NCBI RefSeq assembly: GCF_001956985.1
Contig: NZ_CP019082.1
Span: forward strand, 5,890,001 to 5,954,000
Reading direction: 5' to 3'
DNA from: Paludisphaera borealis
Lineage (GTDB): Bacteria > Planctomycetota > Planctomycetia > Isosphaerales > Isosphaeraceae
Length of the DNA stretch: 64,000 bases
Positions 56,078 to 64,000 of this stretch are shown here, piece after piece. The position numbers were made by a program, and so were the translations under genes. The stretch's first letter is position 1, and each line of letters starts with the position of its first letter. Below the pieces are notes generated by a model. The model searched no databases and had not been told where the DNA came from. It saw only the letters and a list, made by a program, of their open reading frames with translations.

Positions 56078-56757
56078 TTTTCCTTCGGACCTCGGCTTGG
56101 ATCGAATCCGATACAAGGGGCACCGGAGGAGACCTGTTCTCAACCGGCGCCGACCTGATTCGCCCTCACTCTAGTGCGTCCCATGATGGGGCACAATACG
56201 GAATGGGAAGCGGTCGGGGAGGGATGGCCGTCGTCGTGATCGAGCCCAAGGCTGGGCCGAGGCGTCGTCGGTCGAGCCGGTGCGAGTGGAACCGCGCCGG
56301 TGGAGGAAGGCCGCATGTCGGCCCTCCTCCGATCGAGTCGGGCACGATGGAAACCGCCCGGCTCACCTCAAGGAGTTTGTAGCCGAGTCGCCGGTCCCAG
56401 GCGAAGGGTCGAGGGTGTCCCCAGCCCCTTGAGTCCCAACCTGGTCCGCCGTCGATTCTCCGCGCTCGGGCTGAAGGGCCCAAGGCGAAGGAGGAGATCC
56501 ACGCGGTCGTCGAAGTCACCGGACCTCGCGTCGCGCTCCTCGTCCGCCCCGAGAGCCCTTCTCGCGCCTCACAACCTTGTCACGCGCTCCGTGGAACTTC
56601 GTCCGAGTTTGACTCGGGCGGACTCTCCGGGTTTCGAGTCTCCGCCGGACAGCAACGGCAGGGGAGTCGACGCCCGCCATGGAAGGGGAGCGTTCACAAC
56701 CGAATCGCGGGGCGGCCTGAGCCAATGGTTTGGCGGCCGTCTGGGGAGATTCGCTCT
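56078..56757. other. 680-base divergent intergenic region between kdsB and the subtilase
   Basis: No convincing gene in either strand, although several frames are open (including one of 117 codons on the minus strand with no protein-like composition). A strong hairpin GGAGGAAGGCCG / CGGCCCTCCTCC (56302-56330, one mismatch, no T-run) is the only distinct structure. Confidence 0.4.
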
Positions 56758-58620
56758 ATGGCTTGGACCCTGAATGGCAACCGTCCTCGAGACCCAAAGC
56801 GCAGGCGGCAACATGTCGGGCTCGAAGAGCTTGATGTGCGGCAACTGCTCTCGGCCGGGCTCGGGACGAGCCTTCCGAATCCTGGCGCAGCTAAGCATTT
56901 TGAAGCTGCCCATCACACACGGATCGTCGCGGCCCACGCCACCACTCCGACCAAGGTCAACGCCAACGTCCAGTTGAAGGCGGCCAGGCTAAACGCCCAA
57001 GCGGCCCGGACCGGCGCGGCGAATGCGAATGCGTTCGCGACGCGTGCCGCCGCTTTCCAGCGGGCGACGCTGTCGCGGACCACCGAGACGCCGGCCGGAA
57101 CGGTCGCCACCGGCACGCCGACGGTCTTTGATCCGATCATCGGCGCGGCCCAGACGCGACAGAACTACAACATCGACGGCAGCGGCCTGACCGTGGCGGT
57201 GATCGACACCGGCGTGGACTACAACAACAAGGCCTTGGGCGGCGGCTTCGGCGCCAACTCCCGGGTGATCGCCGGTTACGACTTCGCCAAAGGCTCCGGC
57301 GACCCTCTGGCGACCACGTCGCAGCACGGCACCTCCGTGGCCGGCCTGATCGCGGGCTCCGATCCCAGCCACCTGGGCGTCGCGCCCGGGGTCGACGTCG
57401 TCGCGCTCAAGGTCACCGGCGACAACAACGCGGCCGACCTCACCAGCATCGCCAGTGCCTTGCAGTGGGTCGTCGATCATCACAGCGAGTACAACATCTC
57501 GGTCGTGAACATGTCGCTGTCCAACGGCGGCAACTACGCCCGCAACTGGTTCGCCCAGGACGCGGGGGTCGGTCAGCAGATCACCGGGCTCGTCCAGCAG
57601 CTCAAAACCATGAACATCGCCGTGGTCTCGGCCACCGGCAACAGCTTCACGGGTCAACAGGGCGAGGGCTTCACGGCGGTCGTCGACGGCGTGATCAGCG
57701 TCACTGCCACCGACTCGAACGACAAGCTGCTCTCGAACGCCCAGCGGCTGGGCACGGCGCTCGGCGGGGCGACGGCCACCGACATCGCCGCTCCCGGCGC
57801 GGGGATCGTCGCGCCCTCGGGCGACAACGGCTACTCGACCGTCGACGGCACGAGCTTCGCCGCTCCGCTGGTCTCGGGCTCGGTCGTGCTGCTCCAGCAG
57901 CTCTACATGTCGCGGTATCACACGCTGCCGACCGTCGATCAGATCACCGGCTGGCTCAAGCAGGGTGCCACCCCGATCTACGACGCCACGACGGGCATCA
58001 GCCTTGGCCGTCTTGATCTCGCCAAGTCGGCCTCGCTCGTCCCCGGAGCTTCCACGACGCCGCCCGTGGTCGTCACGCCTCCCGTTGTCACGCCGCCCGT
58101 GGTTGTCACGCCGCCTGTGGTCGTGACGCCGCCCGTTGTCACGCCGCCCGTTGTCACGCCGCCTGTTGTCACGCCGCCTGTGGTCGTGACGCCGCCTGTG
58201 GTCGTGACGCCGCCCGTTGTCACGCCGCCTGTGGTCGTGACGCCGCCTGTGGTCGTGACGCCGCCGACGACCCCCGTGGAAACGCCGCCGACGACCCCCG
58301 TGGTGACGCCGCCGACGACCCCCGTGGTGACGCCGCCGACGACTCCGGTCGTCCCGCCGAGCATCCCGGTCTCGTACGTTCCGGAGACCCAGAACCCCCC
58401 TACGGCGCCCACATCGCCCGCGCAGCAGACGCTCGACGTCGTGCTGTATCTCAACGGCAAGCCGCTCAGCTCCAACGACGCCGTGCAAGCCGCTTCAAGC
58501 TCGAAGCTCGGCCAGTCGGGACTTGGGCAGCTCGTCCAGGCGATGAATAAGTGGGCGAATTCGTCGGACGGAACGAAGGCGGTCAGCCGCGTGCGAGCCT
58601 GGAACGCCTCGAAGAGCTGA
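56758..58620 (+). CDS. Subtilisin-like serine protease with LEPR-XLL-type N-terminus and Pro-rich tail repeats
   Basis: 620 aa from ATG 56758 (GGGGAG ~10 bases upstream). Residues 22-33, LEELDVRQLLSA, match the planctomycete N-terminal motif LExLExRxLLSA seen on extracellular proteins. Subtilase triad: Asp150 (VIDTGVD), His190 (QHGTSVAG), Ser366 (DGTSFAAP), with oxyanion Asn295. From 435 to ~532 runs a repeat of twelve PPVV(V)T units followed by four PPTTPVxT units (58060-58353), a cell-wall-spanning or linker-like region. The C-terminal ~90 residues (LDVVLYLNGKPLSSNDAV) are unassigned. Predicted secreted or surface protease. Confidence 0.9.
   Translation: MAWTLNGNRPRDPKRRRQHVGLEELDVRQLLSAGLGTSLPNPGAAKHFEAAHHTRIVAAHATTPTKVNANVQLKAARLNAQAARTGAANANAFATRAAAFQRATLSRTTETPAGTVATGTPTVFDPIIGAAQTRQNYNIDGSGLTVAVIDTGVDYNNKALGGGFGANSRVIAGYDFAKGSGDPLATTSQHGTSVAGLIAGSDPSHLGVAPGVDVVALKVTGDNNAADLTSIASALQWVVDHHSEYNISVVNMSLSNGGNYARNWFAQDAGVGQQITGLVQQLKTMNIAVVSATGNSFTGQQGEGFTAVVDGVISVTATDSNDKLLSNAQRLGTALGGATATDIAAPGAGIVAPSGDNGYSTVDGTSFAAPLVSGSVVLLQQLYMSRYHTLPTVDQITGWLKQGATPIYDATTGISLGRLDLAKSASLVPGASTTPPVVVTPPVVTPPVVVTPPVVVTPPVVTPPVVTPPVVTPPVVVTPPVVVTPPVVTPPVVVTPPVVVTPPTTPVETPPTTPVVTPPTTPVVTPPTTPVVPPSIPVSYVPETQNPPTAPTSPAQQTLDVVLYLNGKPLSSNDAVQAASSSKLGQSGLGQLVQAMNKWANSSDGTKAVSRVRAWNASKS
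58060..58353 (+). repeat. Short tandem repeat encoding PPVVVT/PPVVT and PPTTPVVT
   Basis: Alternating 15- and 18-base units built on GTGGTCGTGACGCCGCC and GTTGTCACGCCGCCC, twelve in all, then four 24-base PPTTPVxT units. All in frame with the subtilase, so copy-number change would alter tail length without frameshift. Confidence 0.9.
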
Positions 58621-58733: not shown

Positions 58734-58879
58734 GTTTGGGTTGCACAAACCTGGTGTGCGCAGGAAGCCCGTATCTCTGTAGGGGCGTCCCTTGTGGGCG
58801 CCCGATCGGCGTCGGCAACCGCGGCGGCCTTGGCGACTCGGGCGCCCACAAGGGACGCCCCTACGAGTGCAACCCAAAC
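58734..58879. repeat. Palindromic element, family C, copy 2, with outer terminal inverted repeats
   Basis: The inner part 58780-58863 is an inverted repeat with arms TAGGGGCGTCCCTTGTGGGC and its inverse, related to 23981-24064. It is enclosed by perfect 13-base inverted repeats GTTTGGGTTGCAC (58734-58746) and GTGCAACCCAAAC (58867-58879). The outer pair is absent around copy 1. The whole ends 33 bases before the SDR gene. Confidence 0.85.
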
Positions 58880-59661: not shown

Positions 59662-61635
59662 TCAGGCGGGGACTTGCCCCGCCTCGATCTCGCCGGTCGC
59701 GTAGGCGTTGAACTCGGTGTAAAGGATGTGGCGGAACAGCTTGCTGTCGGCCTGGAGCTGCGCCGGCGAGGCCATCTCGACGAGCCGGCCGTTGTCGAGC
59801 AGGACCACGTTGTCGCAGGCCTGAACGGTCGCCAGCCGGTGCGGCAGGATGATCAGCGTGGATTCGACCGCGAGTCGAGACAGGGTGTCGTCGAGCAGGA
59901 GCCGGATCTCGTCGTCGATCGGCGAGGCCGGCTCTTCGACGATCAGGATCGACGGGTCGTGCAGATAGGCTCGGGCCAGGGCGATCCGAAGTTGCTCGTC
60001 GGGCTTGAGGTAGTGGCCGAGCGGGCCGATGATCGTGTCGTACCCGTGCGGCAGATCCTGGATGAAGTGGTGGGCGTGCGCGATCTTGGCGGCTTCGATC
60101 ACGCGCTGGAGCGTGTTCCGGGGGTCGCCCAGGCCGATGTTCACGAGGATCGAGTCGGTGAAGACCATGTCGGCCTGAAGGACCGTCGCCACCTGGGCCC
60201 GGACCGATTCGAGCGTCATCTCGCGGAGGTCGCGGCCGTCGATCCGGACGCGGCCCGAATGCGGGTCGATGAGTCGGGGGATCAGGCAGGCGAGGGCCAG
60301 CTTGGAATCGTCGTCCATGCCCATGACGGCCGTGCGGGCGCGGGCGGGGATTTCGAGCGTGACGTGGTCGAGGAGCGTCCGCCCGGAACGACTTTCGAGC
60401 GTCACGTCCTCAAGGGCGATCTGCTCCTTGAGCGGCGCCAGGAACTCCGCCCCGACGTTCTGATGCAGCTCGGGCGAGCGCTCCAGGAACTCGAAGATCT
60501 CGGCCGCCGAGCGATCGGCCAGGCGGACCGTCCGGCGCATCCGGAGCCAGTCGGCGATCGGCAGGGCGAGTCCCGCCAGCGACGCGGTCAGGATCAGCAT
60601 CGTGGCGATCGAGATATGTTCCTTGACGAGGATGTTGTAGCCGAGCAGGCCGAGCGCCGCGACCGTGGCGGCGCCGTAGAGCAGCGCGGTCGTGGTGGAG
60701 GGCCTGGCGTCGGTGAGCATCCGGCGGGAGTCGGCCTCGCGAAACCGCTCCAGGTGTTCGTCGAACCGCTGACGGTCGTAGGTCTCGACCCCGTAGACGC
60801 GCACGGTCCGCAAGAGGCCGAGATCCTCGTGGAGCAGGCAGATCTGGACCGAGGCGTCGCGCAGGGCCGAGTCGTGGGCGAGCCGGGCGTCGCGGTCCAT
60901 CACCCGCGAGGTCATCCAGACGAGAAGACCCAACGACGTCAGGAACAGCGTCAGGATCGGCGAGGTCAACAGGGCGATGGTCGAAAGGCCGACCCCGAGC
61001 ACGAGCATCCGCGGCACGACGTCGAAGTCGGCGACCAGGGCGTCGCGGACGTCGTTGACCTCGCGCGTCCAGATGTTGACGACGGGGCCGACGCCCTCGG
61101 TCGGCAGCGACGACTGGCCCAGCCGGTACATCTGGCGATGAATCTGGTTGCGGAGATTCGTCGTCAGCCCGGTCACGGCGCGGGCGATCGCCGCCCGCCG
61201 CATCTGCCTCAGGATCGACAGCAGCAGAATGAAGACCAGGCCCGCCGCCAGCAACGTCGCCAGCGCCCCGAGGTTGTTCCGCAGCGGCGCCACGACGCCG
61301 GTCAGCCGGTCGAGAACCCGGGCGCCGACGCGATGGACCGGATTGGGGCTGTGGAGATTGCCGCCGATCAGCGGGAAGAGTCCCGAGTCGCCGTATTGCT
61401 CGTACTGGACCGACTCGCCGACCTGGCGGCTTCGACTCCAGGCCGGCAGACCGGGGACGTCGCCGTGGGTGACGTTGATCTCGCCTCGCGAGGCCAGCAG
61501 CGAGGCGAACAGGGCCGCCGTCACCAGGAGGGCCAGCGCCACCAGCGATTCGACCACCCCGAGAATTCGGGCGACCAGGGCGTCTCGGTTGGAGCGGAGG
61601 AGTTTACGGGCTCGAAGGTAGGCTGCCGCTTGCAT
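59662..61635 (-). CDS. ABC transporter half-transporter with degenerate nucleotide-binding domain
   Basis: 657 aa. An N-terminal ABC exporter-like membrane domain (~25-400; helices GVVESLVALALLVTAALFAS, LATLLAAGLVFILLLSIL, FDVVPRMLVLGVGLSTIALL, IALLTSPILTLFLTSLGLLVW, TALLYGAATVAALGLLGYNIL and others) precedes an ABC-like domain 406-657. The NBD keeps Gln487 (Q-loop) and His599 (switch). But Walker A is GMDDDSKLA (439-447) instead of GxxGxGKST, the signature is LKPDEQ (544-549) instead of LSGGQ, and Walker B is IVEEP with Asp replaced by Glu. ATP hydrolysis is doubtful; a regulatory or partner role is inferred. Confidence 0.75.
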   Translation of the reverse strand: MQAAAYLRARKLLRSNRDALVARILGVVESLVALALLVTAALFASLLASRGEINVTHGDVPGLPAWSRSRQVGESVQYEQYGDSGLFPLIGGNLHSPNPVHRVGARVLDRLTGVVAPLRNNLGALATLLAAGLVFILLLSILRQMRRAAIARAVTGLTTNLRNQIHRQMYRLGQSSLPTEGVGPVVNIWTREVNDVRDALVADFDVVPRMLVLGVGLSTIALLTSPILTLFLTSLGLLVWMTSRVMDRDARLAHDSALRDASVQICLLHEDLGLLRTVRVYGVETYDRQRFDEHLERFREADSRRMLTDARPSTTTALLYGAATVAALGLLGYNILVKEHISIATMLILTASLAGLALPIADWLRMRRTVRLADRSAAEIFEFLERSPELHQNVGAEFLAPLKEQIALEDVTLESRSGRTLLDHVTLEIPARARTAVMGMDDDSKLALACLIPRLIDPHSGRVRIDGRDLREMTLESVRAQVATVLQADMVFTDSILVNIGLGDPRNTLQRVIEAAKIAHAHHFIQDLPHGYDTIIGPLGHYLKPDEQLRIALARAYLHDPSILIVEEPASPIDDEIRLLLDDTLSRLAVESTLIILPHRLATVQACDNVVLLDNGRLVEMASPAQLQADSKLFRHILYTEFNAYATGEIEAGQVPA

Positions 61636-61821: not shown

Positions 61822-62634
61822 TCACGCCAGATCGCGGTCCTCGAAGAGCAGGAACGCGAAGAAAAGCGCTGCTCCACTGTACAACACGCAGCAGCCGAAC
61901 GCCGGAAGAACGTATCCCACCCAGGGGATTACGGCGCCCGTCGAGATCGACGGCCCGGCGTTGAACAGTTCGAGCGGCGGCAGAACCCACCCGAAGAGCT
62001 GGGCCATGAAGTGGATCAACTGCTGGCCGTTCTTGGTCGCTTCGACGAGCACCGGGCTGAGGTGGCCGAGGAAGAAGACCATGATGCAGACGATCAGGTT
62101 GACGAGCATCGGCAACCGGGTCGAGATCGCCACGCTGATCGCGGTCAGGATCGTCACCTCGAAGAAGCCCAGCGCCAGGCCCGGCAGAACCTGCATCACC
62201 TGCGCCAGCCGCTTGGCGTTCTCGGCCGCCCCGGCCGTCTCACGCATGTCGTAGGCGTTCTTGTACCAGACGCCCGCGGCGAACAGCGCGCCCAGCAGCA
62301 GGTAGAGGGCCAGCACGCCCAGCTCGATCCCGAGGAACTTGCCGATGATGAACTGGCGGCGGTTGATCGGCTTGGAAAGCAGGGTGATGGCCGTTTTGCC
62401 CTCGATCTCCTCGGCGACCGTCGAGCTGGCCGTCAACAGAGCCAGCAGCATGCAGAAGAAGGAGATGGTCGTCAGACCGGTGTCCTTGTACATCTTGATG
62501 TCTTCGCCGAACGTGAAGTACGGGACGAAGATCGTGGCGACGAGAAGCGCCGCGGCGAAGAAGGCGATCACGAAGAACGCCGGCTGCCGGATCGTTTCCT
62601 TGGCGGTCGCGACCGCGATGGTGAGTGATTTCAT
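61822..62634 (-). CDS. ABC-2-type (NosY-like) permease
   Basis: 270 aa from ATG 62634; the frame continues upstream but MKSLTIAVATAKETIRQPAFFVIAFFAAALL is the typical start of this family. Six hydrophobic helices, with EEIEGKTAITLLSKPINRRQFIIGKFLGIEL between helices 2 and 3, a hallmark of ABC-2 permeases. Its partner ATPase is not adjacent: the gene 187 bases downstream encodes its own membrane domain and a degenerate NBD. Substrate unknown. Confidence 0.82.
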   Translation of the reverse strand: MKSLTIAVATAKETIRQPAFFVIAFFAAALLVATIFVPYFTFGEDIKMYKDTGLTTISFFCMLLALLTASSTVAEEIEGKTAITLLSKPINRRQFIIGKFLGIELGVLALYLLLGALFAAGVWYKNAYDMRETAGAAENAKRLAQVMQVLPGLALGFFEVTILTAISVAISTRLPMLVNLIVCIMVFFLGHLSPVLVEATKNGQQLIHFMAQLFGWVLPPLELFNAGPSISTGAVIPWVGYVLPAFGCCVLYSGAALFFAFLLFEDRDLA

Positions 62635-63230: not shown

Positions 63231-64000
63231 TTACAGCCCGTTGAGGTCGGCGCTCTCGACGACCGCCTGGCCGGCCTGGATCGGCAGCAGGGCCGACCGC
63301 GCGGGGCCGACGCCCACCGCCGCGAACGGGACGCTCGGGGAGCCCGGCGAGGTGCCGGCGCGGAGCCGGACCGACGCCAGGGTGAACGGCAGCCGGTTCT
63401 CGACTCGAAGCATCGTGCTGGTCACGGTTCGCTTGGCGGGCGTGACCGTCACGAAGGTTCGGACCAGCTCGGATTCGAGGCTCTGAACCAGGCTCGACGA
63501 ATCGAGCACCGCGAGCGACGAGTGGTCGCTGAACGCGGTCTTGCCGAGCGGCCGCCAATGGTCTTCGCTGGAGCAGTAGCTGACGTTCACGCGGCCGCGA
63601 GTCTCGCCGATCTCGGAGGTGGCGACGGTGAGCCTCACGAACAGGGCCGGGGCCTTGGCCGAGGGGGGCTGGTCGCCGTCGACCGACTGGATCGGCAGCC
63701 CGAGGAGGCGAAGCCCTTCGAGCTTGCCGTTCAGCCGCTTCGCGTCGGCGGCGAACGCGCCTTCAGCGACGATCTGGACGTAGACGCGGCCTTCGGTCAG
63801 AAGCGAGGGGTCGACGAGGTCGGCGTTCGACGCGTCGACGGCGTCGACGAACCGCGCCGCCAGCGCGATCTCGTGATCGTTGACGACCTTGCCGTCGCGC
63901 GAGGCCATCGCCTCGAAGGCGACGCCGTTGCAGATCCGCCACATCGACGCCTGCGCGACCCCCTGACTGGTGCCCAGCAGGGCGAGGCTGCGAAGCGCCT
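63231..64000 (-). CDS. Hypothetical protein, partial (5' end outside window)
   Basis: The frame is open to the right edge; 255 codons are visible. Residues near the edge read LALLGTSQGVAQASMWRICNGVAFEAMASR, followed by a domain with ARFVDAVDAS, EGRVYVQIVAEG, and a beta-rich C-terminal part (LVRTFVTVTPAKRTVTSTMLRVENRLPFTLASVRLR). No catalytic motif is recognised; the ending resembles a planctomycete exported or scaffold protein of unknown function. Confidence 0.6.
   Translation of the reverse strand, partial: ALRSLALLGTSQGVAQASMWRICNGVAFEAMASRDGKVVNDHEIALAARFVDAVDASNADLVDPSLLTEGRVYVQIVAEGAFAADAKRLNGKLEGLRLLGLPIQSVDGDQPPSAKAPALFVRLTVATSEIGETRGRVNVSYCSSEDHWRPLGKTAFSDHSSLAVLDSSSLVQSLESELVRTFVTVTPAKRTVTSTMLRVENRLPFTLASVRLRAGTSPGSPSVPFAAVGVGPARSALLPIQAGQAVVESADLNGL

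Follow-up and report, generated by a model that had tools for sequence, protein, structure and literature searches.

A conserved ABC-exporter half-transporter with an altered nucleotide site, encoded beside a NosY-like permease in Planctomycetia

The defining feature of ABC exporters is ATP-driven movement, and a full-length exporter gene in which the residues that handle ATP are altered raises the question of whether the gene is decaying or is kept for some other job. Such a gene, termed pseudo-ABC, lies on the reverse strand at positions 59662-61635 of the window, by which we mean the whole stretch of 64,000 nucleotides of Paludisphaera borealis DNA that was analysed. A preliminary description of this stretch had proposed that all of the ATP-binding motifs in the encoded protein have drifted, and that this reflects selection for a non-hydrolysing role and not decay.

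The protein and its nucleotide site

Pseudo-ABC is encoded by one open frame and is composed of 657 amino acids, with the TMD followed by the NBD in a single chain. Pfam places ABC_membrane at residues 125-354 (E 8.6e-14) and ABC_tran at residues 422-570 (E 9.2e-10), and the presence of both within one chain identifies the protein as an exporter half-transporter by descent and fold. NCBIfam matches to MsbA, HepA and similar exporters were all sub-threshold. The AF2 model has a mean pLDDT of 83.8, with the ten-residue blocks of residues 401-640 at 86-96, and preserves both the NBD fold and the exporter arrangement. It resembles ABC exporters over its full length, the full-length rows reaching VIA-align Z values of about 28-31 across some 460-530 residues. 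The helix after the P-loop begins at residue 442 in the model, which we take to be about one turn earlier than the helix of the P-loop Lys in canonical NBDs. Within window positions 60481-61635, the model suggests that a long stretch separating membrane helices 1 and 2 (residues about 50-120) is probably an extracytoplasmic loop.

The motifs of the nucleotide site, all on the reverse strand, are mostly altered. Sequence and family comparison place the Walker A remnant, GMDDDSKLA, at residues 439-447 (60295-60321), and just the first Gly (G439) and the Lys (K445) are left of G-x-x-G-x-G-K-S/T. The signature position at residues 543-548 (59992-60009) reads LKPDEQ where the canonical column letters are LSGGQR, and the end of Walker B at residues 566-569 (59929-59940) reads VEEP, in which Glu567 takes the place of the Asp and is followed by the catalytic Glu568. 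Ser415 (60391-60393) occupies the A-loop position. The Q-loop Gln487 (60175-60177) and the switch His599 (59839-59841) are both kept. The protein consequently lacks what marks an active ABC ATPase, namely a Walker A of the form GxxGxGK[ST], an LSGGQ signature and a Walker B Asp-Glu. These readings bear out the preliminary description, which had reported a Walker A without the P-loop glycines and the Ser/Thr, the LKPDEQ signature and the Glu-for-Asp change in Walker B. Every motif that it named is altered, with the first Gly and the Lys of Walker A and the catalytic Glu surviving, and the Ser at the A-loop position adds a further change. Its statement that the gene is full length and the fold kept likewise agrees with the 657-residue frame, the Pfam domains and the AF2 model.

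Loss of motifs and constraint across the class

The altered motifs are not peculiar to this gene. A family-level search returned an orthologue at E ≤ 1e-60 in 40/45 genomes, and an order-level search covered the identical 45 genomes. The Walker A stretch of these orthologues is G/S-x-D/E-E/D-D-S/A-K-like and never canonical. Orthologues in five other genomes of the same genus likewise lack GK[ST], and 20 hand-picked best matches from other families of the class, which are 31-40% identical, are all degenerate. By comparison, seven paralogues in the same genome as pseudo-ABC carry GK[ST].

A profile was built from 47 members, of which 45/47 match ABC_membrane and 47/47 match ABC_tran (E ≤ 0.01). 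It splits the proteins that were read without overlap: 100 score at least 464 bits and none of them has GK[ST], while the 37 that score under 425 bits comprise 35 with GK[ST] and two fragments of family members. The 440-bit threshold was chosen afterwards, once it was seen that no score fell between 424 and 464 bits. The motifs were then compared between the 100 orthologues, which come from 99 of the 196 class genomes that score and whose loci were hand-picked from score-ordered lists and not drawn at random, and the 35 intact canonical paralogues, from which the two fragments (L173 and the second half of a split copy in genome G255) were omitted.

GK[ST], the A-loop Tyr and the P-loop Gly4 are each found in 0/100 family members compared with 35/35 canonical paralogues, and the P-loop Gly6 (1/100 versus 35/35) and the Walker A Ser/Thr (2/100 versus 35/35) are nearly as scarce. 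The signature Ser is kept in 8/99 family members (35/35 canonical) and the first signature Gly in 0/99 (34/35 canonical), with the second Gly present in 48/99 of the family. The Walker B Asp remains in 1/98 (35/35 canonical). Three positions persist in about half of the family: the Walker A Lys (47/100 versus 35/35), the Q-loop Gln (50/99 versus 34/35) and the switch His (49/98 versus 35/35). The D-loop Asp is retained in 86/98 (34/35 canonical). The loss of residues is non-random, as the Walker B Asp has become Glu in 90/98 and the catalytic Glu never varies (98/98, compared with 34/35 in the canonical set). On these column counts, the contacts to adenine, to the phosphates, to Mg and to the opposing signature are lost. 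Of 84 columns with conservation of at least 85% across the family, 48 are common to the canonical paralogues and are structural, and 16 are family-specific; the family-specific conserved columns include E567, P569, D582, D583 and R587. A sequencing or assembly artefact is ruled out by the agreement between independent genomes.

At E ≤ 1e-132 the profile matches 196/297 genomes of the class, 172/266 of the good ones and 95/154 genera. The count of 196 is a lower bound, as genomes G033 and G034 were missed by the cut-off; each has a far more diverged copy (245 and 274 bits), directly behind the permease gene F01 described below, with no Walker A and with VEEPS kept. Outside the class, 0/330 sampled genomes of the phylum (391 in total) match at the same cut-off; the best score there is 411 bits, and the top two proteins proved canonical when read. 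A scan for close relatives that included other phyla gave four loci: three belong to planctomycetes, and the fourth, in a genome of the Longimicrobiaceae, is a short match at 33%. A maximum-likelihood tree of 74 proteins puts the family on one side of a branch with SH-aLRT 100; this tree omitted a fragment, the three most distant paralogues of the same genome and alternate family rows, and retained the motif columns. A larger tree that included the fragment, mislabelled, gave the family split a support of only 58, the lower value being due to that mislabelling. The proposed pseudo-ATPase family probably arose before the families sampled within the class separated from one another.

Selection was estimated with a simple Nei-Gojobori script. 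Over 10 close pairs, dN/dS of pseudo-ABC ranged from 0.043 to 0.295 over the whole gene and from 0.027 to 0.156 in the NBD, and the NBD value lay below that of the TMD in 10/10 pairs, with the TMD of one pair (G040-G042) at 0.447. For the canonical paralogue the whole-gene range was 0.030-0.202 over 8 of the 10 pairs, and the NBD was lower in 6/8. The two ranges are similar, and no sign of relaxed selection in the pseudo-ABC NBD was seen in the 10 close pairs. The preliminary description had suggested an alignment with planctomycete homologues and an estimate of dN/dS as checks, and had held that canonical homologues in sister species together with relaxed selection would indicate a decaying gene. 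Neither was found: the altered residues are family-wide, with no canonical orthologue among the 100 read from 99 class genomes. Its proposal of selection for a non-hydrolysing role and not decay is therefore supported, the non-hydrolysing part being deduced from the residues present. Its point that the Q-loop and the switch His remain is correct for this protein (Q487 and H599) and fails for the family as a whole, about half of which has lost each of them. Since the relatives have lost identical residues, pseudo-ABC appears to be an old protein kept for another job.

The neighbouring permease F01

F01, a NosY-like ABC-2 permease of 270 amino acids counted from MKSLTIAV (a start chosen by alignment), is encoded at window positions 61822-62634 on the reverse strand, directly upstream of pseudo-ABC and separated from it by a gap of 186 bp. 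Its model has the fold of NosY (Foldseek 7o0y_D, E 3.7e-5, TM 0.61), and its profile matches NosY weakly by sequence (E 5.9e-4). F01 lies directly upstream of the family gene, and on its strand, in 40/48 loci; in the larger set it is directly upstream in 85/100. Five of the 15 family genes without F01 upstream stand at a contig end with 0-2 bases before them, two have 759 and 1160 bases, and the two genes are apart in spite of at least 2 kb of upstream sequence in eight genomes (G079, G106, G165, G180, G219, G222, G097 and G105). Upstream of the canonical paralogues F01 was found in 0/35 cases, of which 27 have at least 900 bases upstream and eight have less and are weakly tested; in the family, 6/100 rows have under 900 upstream bases.

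F01 is single-copy in 288/297 genomes of the class, including 193/196 with pseudo-ABC, and so is tied to pseudo-ABC by position only and not by presence. Its occurrence in many class genomes that have no pseudo-ABC implies that it works there without it. Among 20 F01 loci selected because pseudo-ABC was missing or distant, an adjoining pseudo-ABC was seen only in G033 and G034. No exporter partner half was found next door in the 48 loci, where F01 is the recurrent neighbour, and the pair persists over several families as the other genes around it change. Neighbouring genes for NAD kinase, inositol monophosphatase, acylphosphatase and a transglutaminase were considered and set aside, each occurring only in part of the class and together forming no coherent pathway. 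Two simple patterns (P-loop and DEP) detected no ATPase, and in particular no NosF-like motif, beside 15 relatives of F01 outside the class, nor did the P-loop/DEP pattern among the few class neighbours of F01 that were scanned. ParB-like and metallophosphoesterase-like ORFs, as read from the letters, recur alongside these outside-class relatives (L224-L238).

Several other features of the region were recorded. F02, which has no Pfam match, extends on the reverse strand from window position 63231 to 64000 and beyond, and is found upstream of the pair in many family-level loci; its cluster is present in 23/48 loci. A subtilase-like frame at window 56725-58620 has catalytic motifs that are recognizable by eye and a long linker of TPPVV repeats. 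The palindromic repeat at window 58779-58864 is a dispersed hairpin (REP- or MITE-like) element: with up to 2 mismatches allowed, the same genome contains its 25-base arms 44 times in forward and 49 times in reverse orientation (control 0 and 0), and the arms are often paired at a spacing of about 61 bases.

Possible roles and comparison with known systems

We propose, with a probability of roughly 0.55, that pseudo-ABC is an ancient, constrained pseudo-ATPase of the ABC-exporter type that does not hydrolyse ATP and is probably a structural or regulatory partner of F01. Judged from its residues, the protein is predicted to be without the usual ATP binding or hydrolysis. As it has neither Walker A nor signature, an ATP site would be absent from a homodimer, and pairing with a canonical half would leave a heterodimer without any consensus site; the combination of no ATP site with a kept NBD fold favours a non-hydrolysing structural or regulatory partner. 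Gene order points to F01, which is the most likely partner because the gene pair is conserved. Against this partnership stand the many class genomes that have F01 but no pseudo-ABC and the eight in which the two genes are apart. In such a scheme the nucleotide site would have been erased and the fold maintained by selection, with pseudo-ABC pairing with itself or joining the NosY-like F01 in a complex. Within the complex it might serve as a scaffold or regulator, or might relay a signal from the membrane part to the NBD-like part, and energy could be supplied by an ATPase encoded elsewhere, or none may be required. Some binding of nucleotide or another anion may occur, since the Walker A Lys, the Q-loop Gln and the switch His persist in about half of the family. 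We advance more tentatively the bolder idea that a whole exporter has turned pseudo-ATPase, and that the invariant Glu together with E567, P569, D582, D583 and R587 forms a new surface which scaffolds or regulates an ATPase-orphan NosY-like permease. If true, this would be the ABC-exporter counterpart of the pseudokinases.

It is unlikely, in our estimation, that pseudo-ABC works alone as a homodimer that needs no ATP, serving as a passive conduit, a lipid scramblase or a sensor, with F01 a mere genomic neighbour. The TMD and coupling loops are kept (ABC_membrane in 45/47), as such a role would have it, and F01 does occur without pseudo-ABC; however, the pair outlasts its changing neighbours over several families, and an NBD more constrained than the TMD would be odd in a plain conduit. 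More doubtful still is the proposal that pseudo-ABC supplies the degenerate side of a heterodimeric exporter, the active side coming from a canonical paralogue encoded at an unlinked locus, for example G000:C1:6366172. That paralogue is present in 24/24 genomes searched and is the best-scoring canonical relative of pseudo-ABC in its own genome, and the best structural matches of pseudo-ABC include the heterodimeric exporters TM287/288, TmrAB and MsRv1273c/72c. However, the two genes are unlinked, and each site of a heterodimer pairs the Walker A of one half with the signature of the other. Because pseudo-ABC has lost both, neither site would be consensus, and the usual degenerate-site heterodimer, in which one consensus site remains, is disfavoured. 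The solved MsRv1273c/72c structure has ATP at both sites and a Walker A in each half (PMC12038006).

We regard it as improbable that the NBD has acquired a new way of binding nucleotide or another ligand, by means of the acidic E567-E568 pair together with a helix dipole that is still present. The conservation of that pair and the family-specific charged positions D582, D583 and R587 would suit this idea, although E568 may be merely structural, 100/100 family members lack the A-loop Tyr and the P-loop Gly4, and 53/100 lack the Walker A Lys. Decay is ruled out: the lost motifs do vary between families, the G255 copy (L161, G255:C1:1461709-1463028) is split over two frames by a frameshift or assembly error and those of G033 and G034 are much more diverged, but the full-length frames, dN/dS values well below 1, invariant Glu and class-wide persistence all speak against it.

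What was first described as a single gene thus belongs to a class-wide family of pseudo-ABC proteins beside which a permease gene is conserved, and no description of the family was found among the titles and abstract openings searched in the open-licence literature. An ATP site erased throughout a bacterial class, in a protein otherwise held under strong selection, would reveal what the exporter fold is capable of without ATP, and the family is a natural experiment for telling structural NBD residues from catalytic ones. It also counsels caution, as PF00005 used alone labels dead ATPases as pumps.

With homodimeric exporters of the MsbA/Sav1866/Atm1 type, pseudo-ABC shares domain order, fold, and the structural residues of the ICL and NBD; it differs from them by lacking Walker A, the A-loop Tyr, the signature Ser-Gly and the Walker B Asp. 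TM287/288, TmrAB, TAP and MsRv1273c/72c resemble it in having NBDs with non-canonical ATP-site residues. In TM287/288, TmrAB and TAP, Walker A is kept and ATP is bound at both sites. Such degenerate-site heterodimers keep one consensus site and pair with a second exporter half, whereas pseudo-ABC has lost Walker A and signature and has F01 as its neighbour. To our knowledge, non-canonical ABC exporters usually keep at least nucleotide binding. CFTR, SUR and others place the exporter fold in non-pump roles with ATP binding retained, and pseudo-ABC differs from these in the loss of nearly all of its ATP-binding residues. The NosDFY system offers the closest parallel to the permease, F01 resembling NosY by fold and weakly by sequence; unlike in NosDFY, the gene that adjoins F01 is the exporter-type pseudo-ABC.
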